Below the pieces are notes generated by a model. That model had not been told where the DNA came from. It worked only from the letters and a program-made list of their open reading frames with translations, and made no database searches. From assembly GCA_028279865.1 (NCBI GenBank), contig JANQMV010000055.1, positions 1 through 37,995 on the forward strand: DNA of 37,995 bases, written 5' to 3'. Source of the stretch: Candidatus Altimarinota bacterium. GTDB taxonomy: Bacteria > Patescibacteriota > Gracilibacteria > JANQMV01. A program made the translations under genes and the position numbers. Positions 1,405 through 34,766 of the stretch are shown one piece after another; the stretch's first letter is position 1, and each line of letters begins with the position of its first letter.

Positions 1405-1550
1405 ATTCAAAACGAAGTTTTGCTTAGGTCAGAAAGGTTGCAATTCGGAGATTTCAACCAACTGCATTTATATATCCCGTAAAAACGGAATTATGCTAGT
1501 TACAGTCTGGAGACTGTAACTAGCCTGACCTTATAACAACTCTGTTGTTT
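1405..1550. repeat. Palindromic REP-like unit, trpA side of the transposase
   Basis: Three hairpins in a row: CAAAAC..GTTTTG followed by CTTAGGTCA at about 1409-1431; a perfect 13-bp inverted repeat (CTAGTTACAGTCT) at 1496-1523; and AACAAC..GTTGTT at about 1535-1550 preceded by TGACCTTA. An imperfect palindrome GGTTG..CAACC lies at 1437-1459. The same order recurs on the other side of the transposase (2096-2180), as expected for REP sequences mobilised by RAYT transposases. Confidence 0.75.
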
Positions 1551-2079
1551 GCACCGCAATTATTGAATGATCATCACTTAACCAATTCCGAGCAGAAGAA
1601 TAAACCCATTCCTCCTCTTTTTCAACATATCCTTTCTTCACAGGATTCTGATGAACATAATTTAATTTTTGCTTAAAAAATTTTTCAATTTCAATAATTT
1701 CAGGATAATTATTCTTTTGCCAAATTTGAAAAGTGTTCTTATTTCTTTTGAAAATCGTTGTCTTCAAAAGATTTTGAATATAACGACGATTGTCTTGCTC
1801 AACAATTTTTCTAAGTTCATGAGTTGTCCACTTTTTAAAATCACGTAAAAATATTTCTGCGGAGTAAGGCTGCTCTACTTGAAAAAGCAGATGAATATGA
1901 TTTGTCATAAAAACAAATCCAAACAAGGTTAAACCCTTGTTTTGTTGACAGTATTTTAAAGAATTTAAAATTGTTTCAAAATATTCATTCTTCGTAAAAA
2001 CATCTATCCATTCAATCGTTGTGAGAGTACAGAAGTGTATGGCATTTGGTTTTTCGGGAGATGTATGCAGAGATGGCAT
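1531..2079 (-). CDS. REP-associated tyrosine transposase (Y1_Tnp family)
   Basis: The 182-residue protein belongs to the IS200-like/RAYT single-strand transposase family. It carries the HUH metal-binding motif as HIH in GFVFMTNHIHLLFQ and the conserved block YVHQNPVKKGYV, whose Tyr is the expected DNA nucleophile, followed by the family tail W.YSSARNW. Such enzymes cut and join hairpin-bearing single-stranded DNA. The gene is bounded on both sides by the same three-hairpin unit, so gene and repeats probably form one REPtron-like element inserted between ddl and trpA. It is short but within the family range and has no frameshift or internal TGA, so it may be active. Confidence 0.88.
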   Translation of the reverse strand: MPSLHTSPEKPNAIHFCTLTTIEWIDVFTKNEYFETILNSLKYCQQNKGLTLFGFVFMTNHIHLLFQVEQPYSAEIFLRDFKKWTTHELRKIVEQDNRRYIQNLLKTTIFKRNKNTFQIWQKNNYPEIIEIEKFFKQKLNYVHQNPVKKGYVEKEEEWVYSSARNWLSDDHSIIAVQTTELL

Positions 2080-2095
2080 GTTTTGTAATTTAATA

Positions 2096-2180
2096 ATTCA
2101 AAACAGAGTTTTGTTTAGGTCATTTAAAGTTACAATCTCCAGATTGTAACTAGTGTGACCTTAAAACAACTCCGTTGTTA
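2096..2180. repeat. Palindromic REP-like unit, ddl side of the transposase
   Basis: Second copy of the three-hairpin unit: CAAAAC..GTTTTG plus TTTAGGTCA at 2100-2122, an inverted repeat GTTACAATCT/AGATTGTAAC at 2129-2150, then GTGACCTTA and AACAAC..GTTGTT up to about 2179. Stem bases differ from the 1405-1550 copy in compensated positions (CAGTCT/AGACTG versus CAATCT/AGATTG), which supports selection for the fold. Confidence 0.75.
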
Positions 2181-3372: not shown

Positions 3373-3530
3373 AATTTTGTTTAATTACGAATTAGAAATG
3401 ATAAATTATCCCGCAAAGTCCGGGACAGGCTAAATTGATTTTAGCTTAATCTTTGAAATAATCAAAAAACTTGTTTTTATGACAAAACAATACTATAATT
3501 TCATATGAAAATATAATTTTACTTTTTTGT

Positions 3531-3752
3531 ATGTCTACACTATCAGTTCCACTCACTCCGGAAATTGAGGCAATGGTCACCAAACTTGTTAAAAATGGAT
3601 TTGCGGCTAACAAAGCCGAAGCTGCACGTAAGGCAATCATTAAAGTTGCCGAAGATGAAGCCATTGAGATGGTTTTAAAAAGTGAAAGAGAGGCAAAAGA
3701 AGGTAAACTTCTCAGAGGTGATTTAAAAAAACTCACTGAGTTAATTTCCTAA
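3531..3752 (+). CDS. Ribbon-helix-helix-type antitoxin
   Basis: The 73-residue product has the look of a ParD/CopG-type antitoxin: a short N-terminal strand (STLSVPLTPEIEAMV), a helix-turn-helix-like pair of helices with KAEAARKAI, then a charged, probably flexible C-terminal segment that would bind the toxin. The partner gene starts 3 bases after its TAA, the usual antitoxin-first order. In such modules the antitoxin normally represses the shared promoter. Family assignment is from pattern only. Confidence 0.7.
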   Translation: MSTLSVPLTPEIEAMVTKLVKNGFAANKAEAARKAIIKVAEDEAIEMVLKSEREAKEGKLLRGDLKKLTELIS

Positions 3753-18323: not shown

Positions 18324-18350
18324 AGTAAGTAAGTTTAAAATTTACTTTTT

Positions 18351-18499
18351 TGTCATTCCCGCGAAGGCGGGAATCTATCGAAGGTTTATTCAGAAAACAA
18401 CCTCAACAATTTGCTTTAATACGTCCTTCCTAAGAAATAGATCCCCAGATATTTCATTTTTATAGTTTTATTAAAAAGGATGAAATTCCGAGGATGACA
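18351..18499. repeat. MITE-like intergenic repeat, copy 3
   Basis: Left end TGTCATTCCCGCGAAGGCGG is the start of a 34-base stretch identical to 29436-29469; the right end AAATTCCGAGGATGACA also matches that copy. Inside is GATCCCCAGATATTTC. Total 149 bases, with no coding. It takes up much of the 325-base gap between the prephenate dehydratase-like gene and trpS; the rest of the gap shows only A/T-rich sequence. Confidence 0.78.
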
Positions 18500-18648
18500 A
18501 CAGCCGTCTTTCTGGCTTGTCCAGAATCTCGAACATAAACTATTGCTTTATTTTCCTCAAGCCAACACGCTTAGAATAATTTTTAATTTCCCCTTTCTAA
18601 TGTTAAAATTCCTACGCCTATTCTAAACTAAATTTAACTAAACAAAAA

Positions 18649-26613: not shown

Positions 26614-29307
26614 TTAAAGTTCTTTTCTCAACTTCTGCATCAATCCCTTCCCCACAACTCCAATTAATTCCCCGTCTCCTGCATTTTTAACTCCTTCCAC
26701 AGAACCAAAGCGCTGTAAAAGTTTTTGTTTCATTTTCGGACCTAGCCCCACAATTTCATCCAGTTTTGAATGCACCATTCTCTTACTTCTCAACTCTCGA
26801 TTAAATGTCACAGCAAAGCGATGAGACTCATCACGAATACGTTGAATTAAAAAAGAAACTTCCGAATTTGCCTCAACCGGAATCGGATCTTTTTGATCAG
26901 ACGTAAAAATTTCTTCTTCCTTCTTCGCCAAACTGATTAAAGGAACTTTTAGCTTAAATTCGTCCAAAGCTTTTTGAGCCATCCCAAGTTGCCCTTTTCC
27001 TCCGTCAATTACAATTAAATCAGGCTTTGAAGCAAACGATTTATCAATATGTTCTTGCCGAGATTTGATGTAGGCAAAATATTTAGAATCCGGTTTCTGA
27101 CAATATTCACAAGTTTTGACATGATCTTTAAGCTCTTTTGGTAAATCATAAATTTCCTGAAAGCCTACTTTAAAAAGCAAAGGAGCCTTATCAGAAGAAG
27201 TCACGGCATAAACTTTGGATAATTTAGAACGCCTGATTAATTCAGTACACAGAAGCGTTGCAAAACCTTTACTTCTCTCTTTTTTGTGTACCCACAGTGT
27301 TCCTAATGCTTTCACTTTTTCCGAATAAGTTTTAATCCGAACAAAACCAACAACTTCCTTAGGTTGTTGCTGGTTCAATGTCTCTGACTTGAACCTTAAA
27401 CTCTCCTGAGTTGTATCCGCTTGGTTTGTGGTCAATGAATTAATAGGCATATCTTGAGGTTTTGAACCCCCTGTATCCTTGCAGGACACTGCCCCCTTGC
27501 TAAGGGGGTCTTTTTTAAACGCAGTTTTTTCAATTCTTTCAGCTTGAGGCTTGCAGCTTAAGGCTTGCTTCTCCAAAATCAAAAAATCTTTAACCTCCAA
27601 ATCTTCATCATCTAATTTTTCCTTTTTAACAATTTTTTCAACAAATTCTAAATCCGCTTTCTTCCCTTTACGCAATTTATAATCATCACCCAAAAGCAAC
27701 TTTTTATCATCAAAAGCAATATATTTCAATCTACGCTCCAAAACTTCCTGCATTGCCTTAAAATCATCAATTTCCCCTTCCTCCAAAGAGCGTAGCTTAA
27801 AATGGCGGTAATCAGAATTTTTCGGTTTGCCGTTATGGAAAACTACCATTGACCCAACCGTATCTGTCCCTCCCAAATGAGAAATATCATAACATTCCAT
27901 TCTTCTGATTTTCTTCTCCACACTAAGCACATCCGAAAGCTCATCCAAAAGTTTTTCATAATCAATCGTACGTTCCTCCATCCATTTCAGACGATTGGCT
28001 TTTGCATAAGACATTGAATTCTTTTCCGCCAAAGCAATTAACGCATTTTTCTTACCCTTTTGTGGTACAAGCAATTTGACGTTTCTACCTGCTAATTCTG
28101 AAAGAAATTGCTTAAATGCCCTTAATGCTCCCCGCCTTTCCAAGGAGGGGTTGGGGGAGGTATTAACTGCTGGTTCAATGTCTCTGACTTGAACCTTATT
28201 GTTTTTTCTGTTGCTCTCCTGTGCAACATCCGCTTGGTTACTTTGAACTTTCAACTTTGAACTTTCAACTTCAGCGCTGACAACACCCCCCTGCCCCCTC
28301 AAGGGGGTTTCTTTACCAAGCGGAATCGGCAACAAAATCTCCTTTGGAATATCCGTTGCAGCAGCATAGTATTGCTCTAAAAAAGCTTCTAAAATTTGAG
28401 CTTCACCTTCCTGATCAAGCGACTCCCCCTCTACAATAAATTTTTCTTGTCCGATCATTTTTCCATCACGAATCTGTAATAATGTAAAAAATGTCTTGCC
28501 TAAATCCTGCACAAAACCAAACACATCCCGTTCTTCAAAATTGGCTTCGGAAATGTATTGCTTGTCCGTGATATTTTGTACTGCAAAAAGGTTATCACGA
28601 AGTTTTCCGGCTCTTTCAAATTTACGCTGAGCAGCAGCTTCTTGCATTTCGACTTTAATCTGCTTCTCAATCTCAGCAGTTTGTCCTTTCAGAAATAAAA
28701 CAATTTTATCAATAATTTTACGGTATTCTTCCTGACTGACTTTTCCAATACAAGGTCCCAGGCACTTTTTGATATGATACTGCAAACAAGGCAAATTACG
28801 CGCTACGCCTTTAACCACAACTGAACCTTCTACATCCCGAATATCATAATTACAATCACGAAACGGAAAAATCTTGGTAAGTAGCTTCAGAGTTTTATCT
28901 ACACTGGATTTACTTGTTTTCGGTCCAAAATACTTCGCTCCGTCTTTTTCCATCTTGCGAACGACCATCACTCGTGGATAATCTTCGTTTAAAGTCACTT
29001 TGATATAAACAAAATTCTTATCATCCTTCATTAAAATATTGTATTTGGGTCTTAACTCTTTGATAAAATTTGTTTCCAGAATAATTGCTTCTTGCTCCGT
29101 ATTAGTTTCAATCCACTCAAAATCCGCAGTATTTTCAACTAATTTCTGATTTTTAGGACCGTGATTGGCAGATTTTTGAAAATAATTTTTAACTCGACTT
29201 TTCAAATTTTTTGCTTTACCGACATAAAGCACCTTTCCTTTTTTATCCAGAAATTTATAAATCCCCGGGGAAGTCGTCAGGTTTTTGAGCTTGTCTTTAA
29301 TACTCAT
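26614..29307 (-). CDS. uvrC: Excinuclease ABC subunit C with embedded GNAT domain and repeat-derived inserts
   Basis: UvrC makes both incisions in nucleotide excision repair. Seen in order: GIY-YIG nuclease (about 10-90, GIYKFLDKKGKVLYVGKAKN), Cys-rich segment (DCNYD..CLQYHIKKCLGPC), UVR helix pair (about 205-240), the RNase H-like nuclease (ECYDISHLGGTDTVGSMVVF, VIDGGKGQLGMAQKAL) and the C-terminal (HhH)2 (VGLGPKMKQKLLQRFGS). The 897 residues exceed the usual 600. The extra is a GNAT domain (about 541-735) inside the nuclease domain and two low-complexity inserts, about 333-396 and 581-650, encoded by palindromic repeats. Frame is intact, with no TGA. Whether the inserts are kept at RNA or protein level is unknown. 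Confidence 0.95.
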   Translation of the reverse strand: MSIKDKLKNLTTSPGIYKFLDKKGKVLYVGKAKNLKSRVKNYFQKSANHGPKNQKLVENTADFEWIETNTEQEAIILETNFIKELRPKYNILMKDDKNFVYIKVTLNEDYPRVMVVRKMEKDGAKYFGPKTSKSSVDKTLKLLTKIFPFRDCNYDIRDVEGSVVVKGVARNLPCLQYHIKKCLGPCIGKVSQEEYRKIIDKIVLFLKGQTAEIEKQIKVEMQEAAAQRKFERAGKLRDNLFAVQNITDKQYISEANFEERDVFGFVQDLGKTFFTLLQIRDGKMIGQEKFIVEGESLDQEGEAQILEAFLEQYYAAATDIPKEILLPIPLGKETPLRGQGGVVSAEVESSKLKVQSNQADVAQESNRKNNKVQVRDIEPAVNTSPNPSLERRGALRAFKQFLSELAGRNVKLLVPQKGKKNALIALAEKNSMSYAKANRLKWMEERTIDYEKLLDELSDVLSVEKKIRRMECYDISHLGGTDTVGSMVVFHNGKPKNSDYRHFKLRSLEEGEIDDFKAMQEVLERRLKYIAFDDKKLLLGDDYKLRKGKKADLEFVEKIVKKEKLDDEDLEVKDFLILEKQALSCKPQAERIEKTAFKKDPLSKGAVSCKDTGGSKPQDMPINSLTTNQADTTQESLRFKSETLNQQQPKEVVGFVRIKTYSEKVKALGTLWVHKKERSKGFATLLCTELIRRSKLSKVYAVTSSDKAPLLFKVGFQEIYDLPKELKDHVKTCEYCQKPDSKYFAYIKSRQEHIDKSFASKPDLIVIDGGKGQLGMAQKALDEFKLKVPLISLAKKEEEIFTSDQKDPIPVEANSEVSFLIQRIRDESHRFAVTFNRELRSKRMVHSKLDEIVGLGPKMKQKLLQRFGSVEGVKNAGDGELIGVVGKGLMQKLRKEL
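27103..27687 (-). other. GNAT acetyltransferase domain inside uvrC
   Basis: Residues about 541-735 of UvrC read as a GNAT fold: N-terminal DDYKLRKGKKADLEFVEKIV, a second-helix stretch ending FLILEK, then after the repeat insert VVGFVRIKTYSEKVKALGTLWVHKKERSKGFATLL (strand 4, then the acetyl-CoA loop) and the C-terminal APLLFKVGFQEIYDLPKELK with CEYC. The ending resembles N-acetylglutamate synthase-like GNATs. It is placed between RRLKYIAFDD and SRQEHIDKSF of UvrC. Confidence 0.75.
27358..27567 (-). repeat. Repeat-derived insert 2 in uvrC
   Basis: This in-frame block (residues about 581-650) falls in a surface loop between GNAT strands. It contains 31 bases (27368-27398) identical to 28168-28198 in insert 1, a palindrome GGTTCAA..TTGAACC, plus a C-rich inverted repeat around 27490-27512 (GCCCCCTTGCTAAGGGGG). 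Its codons give low-complexity polar residues. Confidence 0.8.
28120..28311 (-). repeat. Repeat-derived insert 1 in uvrC
   Basis: This in-frame block (residues about 333-396) lies before the nuclease core. It includes the 31-base identity with insert 2, a further shared piece (CTCTCCTG...ATCCGCTTGG), a tandem GAACTTTCAACTTT stretch and GC-rich arms (CTCCCCGCC...GGAGGGG). Its peptide has NTSPNPSLERRG, the translation of a common dispersed intergenic repeat. Confidence 0.8.
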
Positions 29308-29399: not shown

Positions 29400-29429
29400 T
29401 GAAGGCGACATTTCACAATGTCGCCTTCA
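29400..29429. repeat. GAAGG-type hairpin between uvrC and the flavodoxin gene
   Basis: A 12-bp perfect stem (TGAAGGCGACAT) with a 6-base loop. Its core matches the hairpins at 9015 and 11390, but here it lies between divergent genes and lacks a U-tract, so a terminator role is doubtful. Confidence 0.65.
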
Positions 29430-29435
29430 TATTCC

Positions 29436-29589
29436 TGTCATTCCCGCGAAGGCGGGAATCTATCGAAGGCATTCATTTTCACAAAACTAAAGGATATAAT
29501 TTTGTTTTATGTCATTAAATGGAGTAGGGATCCCCGGATATTTTAACTTTTATATTCTTTACGCTAAGGATAAAATTCCGAGGATGACA
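29436..29589. repeat. MITE-like intergenic repeat, copy 5
   Basis: A 154-base unit with left end TGTCATTCCCGCGAAGGCGG and right end AAATTCCGAGGATGACA. Its first 34 bases equal those of the copy at 18351. The centre has GGATCCCCGGATATTTTAA and ACGCTAAGGATAAAATTCC. It lies in the 356-base gap between divergent uvrC and the flavodoxin gene, together with the hairpin at 29400. Confidence 0.8.
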
Positions 29590-29663
29590 GTCTGATAAAG
29601 AAGATGACAAATTGGAATTTCTTCTCTAAAATTCAGACAATAAAGTCCATTATTCAAAACAAC

Positions 29664-32525: not shown

Positions 32526-32566
32526 AGAGCTGACAGGTTTTAAAAACCTGTCAGCTCTTTTTTTTT
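32526..32566 (+). terminator. Intrinsic terminator after the ABC exporter
   Basis: A long stem (arms AGAGCTGACAGGTTTT and AAACCTGTCAGCTCT, 32526-32558) is followed by nine T residues. It starts 9 bases after the exporter stop. Confidence 0.92.
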
Positions 32567-32779
32567 GTCATCCTCGGAATTTTATCCTTGGTGTTAAAAG
32601 TATAAAAATAAAATATCCGGGGATCTCTACTATTTGAAATGACATAAAACGAAATTAGATTCTTGATGTTTTTGGTAAATTATTCCTCCGACAGATTCCA
32701 GATATTTTTTCTAATTCCAGAGTTATAAATTTAAATGGATAGAATTAGAATAAACCTACACGGAAAGTTCTGGAATGAC
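32566..32779. repeat. MITE-like intergenic repeat, copy 6 and adjoining fragment
   Basis: TGTCATCCTCGGAATTTTATCC at 32566 opens an element whose first inverted end is ATGACA at 32639-32644. A second fragment (GATTCCAGATATTTTTTC... to TTCTGGAATGACG at 32779) extends it. It is the left part of the 757-base gap between the ABC exporter and argG; the rest holds the argG promoter, leader and attenuator (32801-32989), an inverted repeat (32994-33076), and about 200 bases of A/T-rich sequence with nothing I can name. Confidence 0.65.
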
Positions 32780-34498: not shown

Positions 34499-34520
34499 TC
34501 CAAGACTAAAGCTGCAAATT

Positions 34521-34606
34521 TGTCATCCTGAGGAGTGAAAAGACGAAGGATCTCCGCCACTGACTGCCAGAGATTCTTCACTCCGTAAACTACGTTCAGA
34601 ATGACA
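34521..34606. repeat. MITE-like intergenic repeat, copy 7 (short)
   Basis: Ends TGTCATCCTGAGGAG and TTCAGAATGACA; 86 bases. The interior (GAAAAGACGAAGGATCTC and GAGATTCTTCACTCC) is near-palindromic. It resembles a different subtype of the same termini. Confidence 0.6.
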
Positions 34607-34633
34607 CGTCTATAACTTCCAAATCCCTCCCCG

Positions 34634-34766
34634 TGTCATCCCGGAATTATGTCCGCTTTAATAAAAAAATAGAAAAGTCATAATATCCGGGATCTCACTG
34701 CTGAATATTAGATTCCGGATATTTTAACTCTAAAATTAACATCAAAGATAAAATTCCGGAATGACA
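34634..34766. repeat. MITE-like intergenic repeat, copy 8
   Basis: Ends TGTCATCCCGGAATT and AAATTCCGGAATGACA are inverted repeats of each other; 133 bases. The left 63 bases differ from the copy at 35808 by one substitution and one indel. Confidence 0.8.

Follow-up and report, generated by a model that had tools for sequence, protein, structure and literature searches.

How two related, hairpin-rich inserts came to lie in frame within one DNA repair gene is the question raised by uvrC of a Candidatus Altimarinota bacterium (Patescibacteriota, Gracilibacteria). The gene occupies positions 26614-29307 (minus strand) of the 37,995-nt stretch of DNA that was analysed, here called the window. It matches TIGR00194 (uvrC) with 527 bits, and its frame is intact and open over all 897 codons, as had been predicted; the 897-aa product contains GIY-YIG, UVR, RNase H and HhH domains and a nested GNAT domain. 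Two additional segments were delimited by aligning the protein with 23 UvrC sequences from its class, which are 39-47% identical to it: insert 1, of about 62 residues (residues ~333-394; ~28126-28311, minus strand), and insert 2, of about 69 residues (residues ~581-649; ~27361-27567, minus strand). Both are missing in all 23 proteins, so that insert-free versions of the gene, which the original prediction looked for in relatives, do exist. In one of these relatives (genome G048) the uvrC homologue is unbroken at the site of insert 2 and has only about 13 nt at the site of insert 1. The uvrC genes of several class relatives require TGA as a sense codon, which suggests a place in the Gracilibacteria/Absconditabacteria group of Patescibacteria.

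An AlphaFold model of UvrC, built with the alignment of the 23 relatives, folds over most of its length; pLDDT falls below 50 in two long segments, residues 333-392 and 584-647. Both inserts are disordered in this prediction and are most likely flexible loops. Both are real and, judged from the alignment, arose after the lineage had separated from the relatives that were sampled. Insert 2 falls in the nested GNAT domain, within one of its beta-hairpins. In UvrC of this class, a GNAT acetyltransferase domain is nested in the RNase H endonuclease domain (residues ~540-735 of the window UvrC; also seen at locus L161).

The original prediction had assigned to the region 27358-28311 a 31-base identity between the inserts, a longer diverged repeat and hairpins in each, and all of these were recovered. 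The 31-nt repeat is perfect (27368-27398 and 28168-28198), and the 26 nt next to it are 81% identical. All parts of the inserts are given here as read on the minus strand. In insert 1 the 31-mer (28168-28198) encodes KVQVRDIEPA and carries a terminal hairpin, hairpin A (GGTTCAAGTC-AGA-GACaTTGAACC, tag CCAGC), at 28172-28195; in insert 2 the 31-mer (27368-27398), with hairpin A at 27372-27395, is read in a different frame, as RFKSETLNQ. Beside it lies hairpin B, whose stem covaries among copies (insert 1, GTTGCACAGGAGAGCAAC, 28210-28227; insert 2, ACAACTCAGGAGAGTT, 27399-27414). A C-type GC hairpin is found in both inserts (insert 1, CCCCCTTGAGGGGG, 28294-28307; insert 2, CCCCCTTAGCAAGGGGG, 27492-27508), and insert 2 also contains hairpin D (GTGTCCTGCAAGGATACA, 27472-27489). 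The peptides NTSPNPSLERRG and SKLKVQS, which had been taken for translated intergenic repeats, come from sources other than the 31-mer family. The former is encoded by an adjoining second, GC-rich palindrome at the 3' edge of insert 1 (28130-28160), a repeat distinct from the shared family, and the latter by a heptameric simple repeat nested in insert 1 (28240-28269). Heptameric simple repeats (GTTCAAA/GTTGAAA, GCTTGAG/GCTTGCA, CTCGTGG/CTCGTAG) adjoin many element copies in frame, as at 27541-27566 and at the heptamers of insert 1 in the window and at loci L003 and L011, as though repeats accumulate at such sites.

The 31-mer marks the end of a composite, hairpin-built element that is dispersed and about 60-210 nt long. 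In the genome (1.48 Mb; a draft assembly of 59 contigs, probably metagenomic), the 31-mer pattern with up to 3 mismatches occurs at 10 sites, compared with 0 for the reversed control, and its recurrence is no chance match. BLASTN with insert 2 and a pattern search placed family copies in many contigs. A covariance model built on hairpins B and A, with a short calibration and rough E-values, gave 12 clear copies at 54-94 bits, with the next match at 34.7. They lie in uvrC (two), priA (two), uvrA, recG, ileS, murD, ispE, trpE, trpCF and a gene with a UPF0489 domain. In addition, uvrA contains an extra diverged hairpin in tandem, and argS contains the 5' part of the element alone; in all, in-frame members reside in at least 11 conserved genes.

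All 12 clear copies fall within long open frames of conserved genes and on the strand of the host gene (p = 0.00024 under equal strands), and the covariance search of the genome found no clear intergenic copy of the composite. The repeats are thus dispersed, as predicted, and the 31-mer recurs in other genes; the proposal that the inserts are translated intergenic repeats failed. The in-gene distribution has p of about 4e-5 on the assumption that every intergenic insertion and one in-gene insertion in six is retained; this argument depends on the assumed survival, because the coding fraction alone gives 0.09. Alignments to PDB sequences showed solved, insert-free homologues with a gap at the insert for IspE, ArgRS, MurD, TrpE, UvrA, PriA and TrpF. 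The break is cleanest in UvrA, where about 50 extra residues of the query (465-520) fall between residues 461 and 466 of the homologue. TrpCF (locus L012) has a second, different insert at residues ~313-357 (CPEKTGRGQGVCDSFEVKDSEPAPHKRRQARKTKK), which is missing in solved homologues. Two contigs of the genome (C1 and C37 of G000) start inside element copies, in ileS and recG respectively; repeats probably break the assembly, and further copies may hide at contig ends. No other carrier of the element was found among 99 genomes of the same class by DNA search or among 242 by the covariance model; plasmids and phages gave no match to the element, and viral contigs none to the exact core pattern.

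What kind of sequence is the element? Hairpin A fits the form of a REP: an imperfectly paired hairpin, 20-40 nt long, that carries a conserved unpaired tag on one side, here G(C/T)T-GG / CCA(G/A)C. The hairpin A core was found in Patescibacteria MAGs, in Candidatus Anammoxibacter (about 20 copies), in a Thermodesulfovibrionia genome and in Saprospiraceae. Outside this genome it is nearly always intergenic, in some cases as inverted pairs with GTTGG...CCAAC ends. The terminal hairpin belongs to a REP type, tagged GYT-GG, that lies between genes in other phyla. This genome, too, has intergenic REPs in which that tag accompanies a different stem (GGAGCAA), and the intergenic relatives of the composite have other stems or apices and weak covariance scores only. 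One independent intragenic case was met: an open reading frame of at least 807 aa in a Parcubacteria genome (RS_2_6) contains a close variant (KTVQVGDTEPA/T) twice, in frame both times. A degenerate-pattern match in a methyltransferase-like gene of an uncultured bacterium (L073) looks like chance, and most other ORFs of more than 100 aa at matches in foreign genomes look spurious. The Thermodesulfovibrionia contig CALZJD010000091.1 (L054, ~3503-3730) carries a tandem array of a GGTTCAAGTCAGGAGACATTGAACCAACAGAGG hairpin.

RAYTs, the REP-associated Y1/HUH transposases, were defined by two flanking inverted REPs (Nunvar et al. 2010, PMC2817692). Y1_Tnp genes are present in 10 of 10 tested genomes with the hairpin core; because 5 or 6 of 14 control genomes have them too, this co-occurrence is weak by itself. 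A Saprospiraceae genome contains a RAYT in two copies, flanked by REPs of the GGTTCAAGTCAGGAGACTTGAACCAGC type (GGTTCAAGTC(AGGA/GGGA)GACTTGAACCAGC), to which the terminal hairpin of our element, with its tag, is near-identical over 27 nt. Inverted GGCTCCAGTCAGGAGACTGGAGCCAAC REPs (GGCTCCAGTCAGGAGACTGGAGCC) with the apex of hairpin B stand on both sides of a Parcubacteria RAYT. In both cases the flanking REPs have the apex of the in-gene hairpins. The genome studied here has four RAYT-like Y1_Tnp genes, none of which is flanked by the exact in-gene hairpin A. The RAYT on contig C10 has inverted GGTTCAACCTACAAGGTTGAACCAGC REPs on both sides, with the stem and tag of hairpin A and a different apex; the covariance (RNA) model recovered them independently as weak matches. 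Another of the four, of 182 aa, lies in the window (1531-2079, minus strand) between a downstream hairpin (CTAGTTACAGTCTCCAGACTGTAACTAG, 1496-1523, minus strand) and an upstream partner (AGTTACAATCTGGAGATTGTAACT, 2128-2151, minus strand). It shares 57% identity with the Parcubacteria RAYT and 37% with the Saprospiraceae RAYT; in a RAYT tree most forks are unresolved. The RAYT on contig C14 is flanked by GAAGGCGA..TCGCCTTC hairpins (locus L085), one copy of which stands beside uvrC (29401-29428).

We consider that the uvrC inserts are copies of one intragenic REP family that a RAYT (Y1/HUH) transposase has moved in the past, with a probability of roughly two in three. The proposal draws on the dispersed copies, all of them in genes and on the coding strand, on the insert-free relatives, on hairpins that are kept while the codon positions diverge equally, and on the same or nearly the same hairpin and tag beside RAYT genes. 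According to this proposal, the transposase would at some time have mobilised short hairpin DNA, and some hairpin elements would have landed in frame inside genes. Such copies could persist there, since the frame stays open, a disordered loop forms and deletion is hard without breaking the frame, while intergenic copies would be lost by deletion. Movement of the copies by a RAYT, translation and tolerance of the inserts and deletion of intergenic copies are all inferred steps. A RAYT near REPs is no proof that this RAYT moved them. Several findings stand against the proposal: the REPs of the C10 RAYT differ in apex, the composite is intragenic where classical REPs are intergenic, it exceeds a REP in length, and no RAYT link is shown for its 5' hairpins C and D. 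A more specific version, which we put forward tentatively, is that a RAYT-type REP lineage of Patescibacteria has become specialised for life in genes; it would be compatible with translation, confined to coding sequence and there to the coding strand, RPE-like with an identified transposase, and of a REP type found in several phyla.

The same findings leave some room for a different route, i.e. selfish palindromes resembling the Rickettsia palindromic elements (RPEs) that were spread by another transposase, by recombination or by gene conversion, the likeness to RAYT-associated REPs being a shared ancestral hairpin only. That the exact element flanks none of the RAYT genes of this genome is in its favour, as is the 5' half (hairpins C and D and the heptamers), for which no RAYT link is seen. 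However, the near-identity of the terminal hairpin and tag to the Saprospiraceae RAYT REPs, and the recurrence of stem and tag at both ends of the C10 RAYT, speak against it, and we judge this route rather unlikely.

It seems improbable, on the other hand, that the inserts are functional protein modules, such as linkers or interaction peptides, selected for their peptide. Such a role might be suggested by the many conserved enzymes that hold inserts, several of them of DNA repair, and by the 5' part of the element, which is read in one frame in all copies and gives a recognisable peptide (PLSKG...GG..Q); stops in the other frames of the 5' part, however, suffice to explain this constancy. The hairpins that make up the copies are C (CCCCCTTnnnAAGGGGG), D, B (variable stem, apex CAGGAGA) and terminal A (GGTTCAAGTCAGAGACATTGAACC), the last followed by AGC in 11 copies and by AAC in recG. 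In hairpins B and A together, 93.9% of the cells pair, against 25-42% in slid structures. In five pairs of hairpin B both partners differ among copies, and covariation scores higher than in all 500 shuffles; because the shuffles leave relatedness among the copies in place, weight is put on the slid control and the changed stems. Hairpin A varies so little (93% identity among copies, compared with 66% upstream) that compensatory changes on both sides of a pair are not seen in it. This conservation of DNA is kept although the frames differ between genes. First, copies in which hairpin A is read as KVQVRDIEPA resemble those that read it as RFKSETLNQ as closely in this hairpin as the members of either group resemble one another. 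Secondly, murD reads it in the third frame. In the commonest subfamily, moreover, the three codon positions diverge about equally (0.25/0.32/0.26), and the inserts of UvrC are predicted to be disordered, both of which argue against selection for the peptide. The pattern of conservation in these copies indicates that the constraint acts on DNA or RNA structure and that the peptide need only stay open.

The strong hairpins could also mean that the inserts are removed from the RNA in the manner of an intron or bypassed by the ribosome, for which the mobile bypass elements of yeast mitochondria are a precedent. Group I or II introns and bypass elements interrupt the frame or bring stops, whereas all copies here are stop-free and in frame, which would be needless under removal or bypass, and no catalytic intron features were noted; this explanation is very improbable. 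An assembly artefact or decaying pseudogenes, as a draft in 59 contigs with two starting inside a copy might suggest, can be dismissed almost entirely in view of twelve separate contexts, long open frames and conserved domains on both sides where the contig allows.

Returning to an intragenic REP family as the preferred reading, we compared it with known systems. The original prediction likened the inserts to RPEs, and the likeness stands in part. RPEs (summarised in PMC10969869) and the protein-coding palindromes of Wolbachia are palindromic elements of about 100-150 nt that, like ours, lie in frame in unrelated housekeeping genes, where they add a peptide; a hairpin-rich palindromic element in frame in many unrelated conserved genes, and a disordered insert, are found here too. 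The terminal tag, however, is GYT-GG and not the CGTC reported for R. conorii RPE sequences (PMC3733652), and the host is a patescibacterium. In R. conorii, close to half of the RPEs lie within genes (PMC10969869), compared with 12 of 12 clear copies here. The family works like an RPE, a likeness in manner; judged by the terminal tag, it would not be an RPE by descent. REP, BIME and REPIN sequences with a RAYT (the GTAG super-family) share with it the short hairpin, the unpaired end tag and the inverted pairs, but in most hosts they are intergenic. Their RAYT gene stands between two inverted REPs (PMC2817692), an arrangement that the C10 RAYT of this genome shows with the stem and tag of hairpin A but another apex; here the tag is GCT or GTT before GG, and the composite is longer and intragenic only. 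Because neither of the tags described by Di Nocera et al. 2013 (GTAG and CGTC; PMC3733652) is present, the family is filed as a variant, and not under RPEs or GTAG REPs.

Intragenic REPs and REP clusters are also found in ORFs of Opitutus terrae, Thioalkalivibrio and Thauera, where they encode 20-82 residues (PMC3733652); most REPs of these organisms are intergenic, whereas all clear composites here are intragenic, and phylum and tag differ. Many of those intragenic REPs are in genes of DNA synthesis and repair (uvrA, uvrB, recBCD, dnaE2), and R. conorii RPEs likewise occur in uvrB and dnaE (PMC3733652). Repair and restart genes (uvrC, uvrA, priA, recG) make up, by plain count, 4 of the 11 host genes with clear copies, which agrees with that reported bias. 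Prokaryotic MITEs (ERIC and others) are also short, non-autonomous and able to fuse in frame with host genes; unlike them, our element has a hairpin architecture of REP type, and neither terminal inverted repeats nor target-site duplications were recognised in it.

The kind of element is therefore already known, from RPEs and intragenic REPs, while the lineage, the tag, the exclusively intragenic distribution and the RAYT link look new. No link to REPs flanking RAYT genes was found in the RPE literature consulted, and none of the papers searched connects Patescibacteria with REPs. Protein-coding palindromes are hereby extended to Patescibacteria, with the Parcubacteria protein as a second case, and one REP type is common to distant phyla. 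How protein-coding palindromes move has been a question since RPEs were described in 2000. The match of the terminal hairpin to RAYT-flanking REPs hints at an answer, and this genome combines in-gene copies with a transposase gene that has their stem and tag on both sides, which makes the question testable.

Other repeats were noted in the same genome. A high-copy intergenic family (GTCATTC...GGGAATCT...ATCCCGGA...GGATGACA) occurs in the window at 18332-18503, 29413-29600, 32564-32779 and 34507-34700; none was seen within conserved genes in a 429-kb sample of genome stretches, on which gene calls for the surroundings were crude, and its distribution is the reverse of that of the intragenic family. 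A further in-gene repeat, with the peptides ILASS.ARKSPES and EDFSTAP...FGRND, is present in a MurC-like gene, a 546-aa ORF and a 481-aa ORF (loci L132:9207-10655, L132:14391-16031 and L120:2436-3881). A 1167-aa PHP-like ORF (L135:16188-19691, minus strand) contains the in-frame palindromes GGTAGAGACACATTGCAATGTGTCTCTACC and CAGACAGCTAAAGCAGTCTG...CTGCTTTAGCTGGTTG, and a variant of the latter is found in a 287-aa ORF (L127:9552-10415, minus strand).
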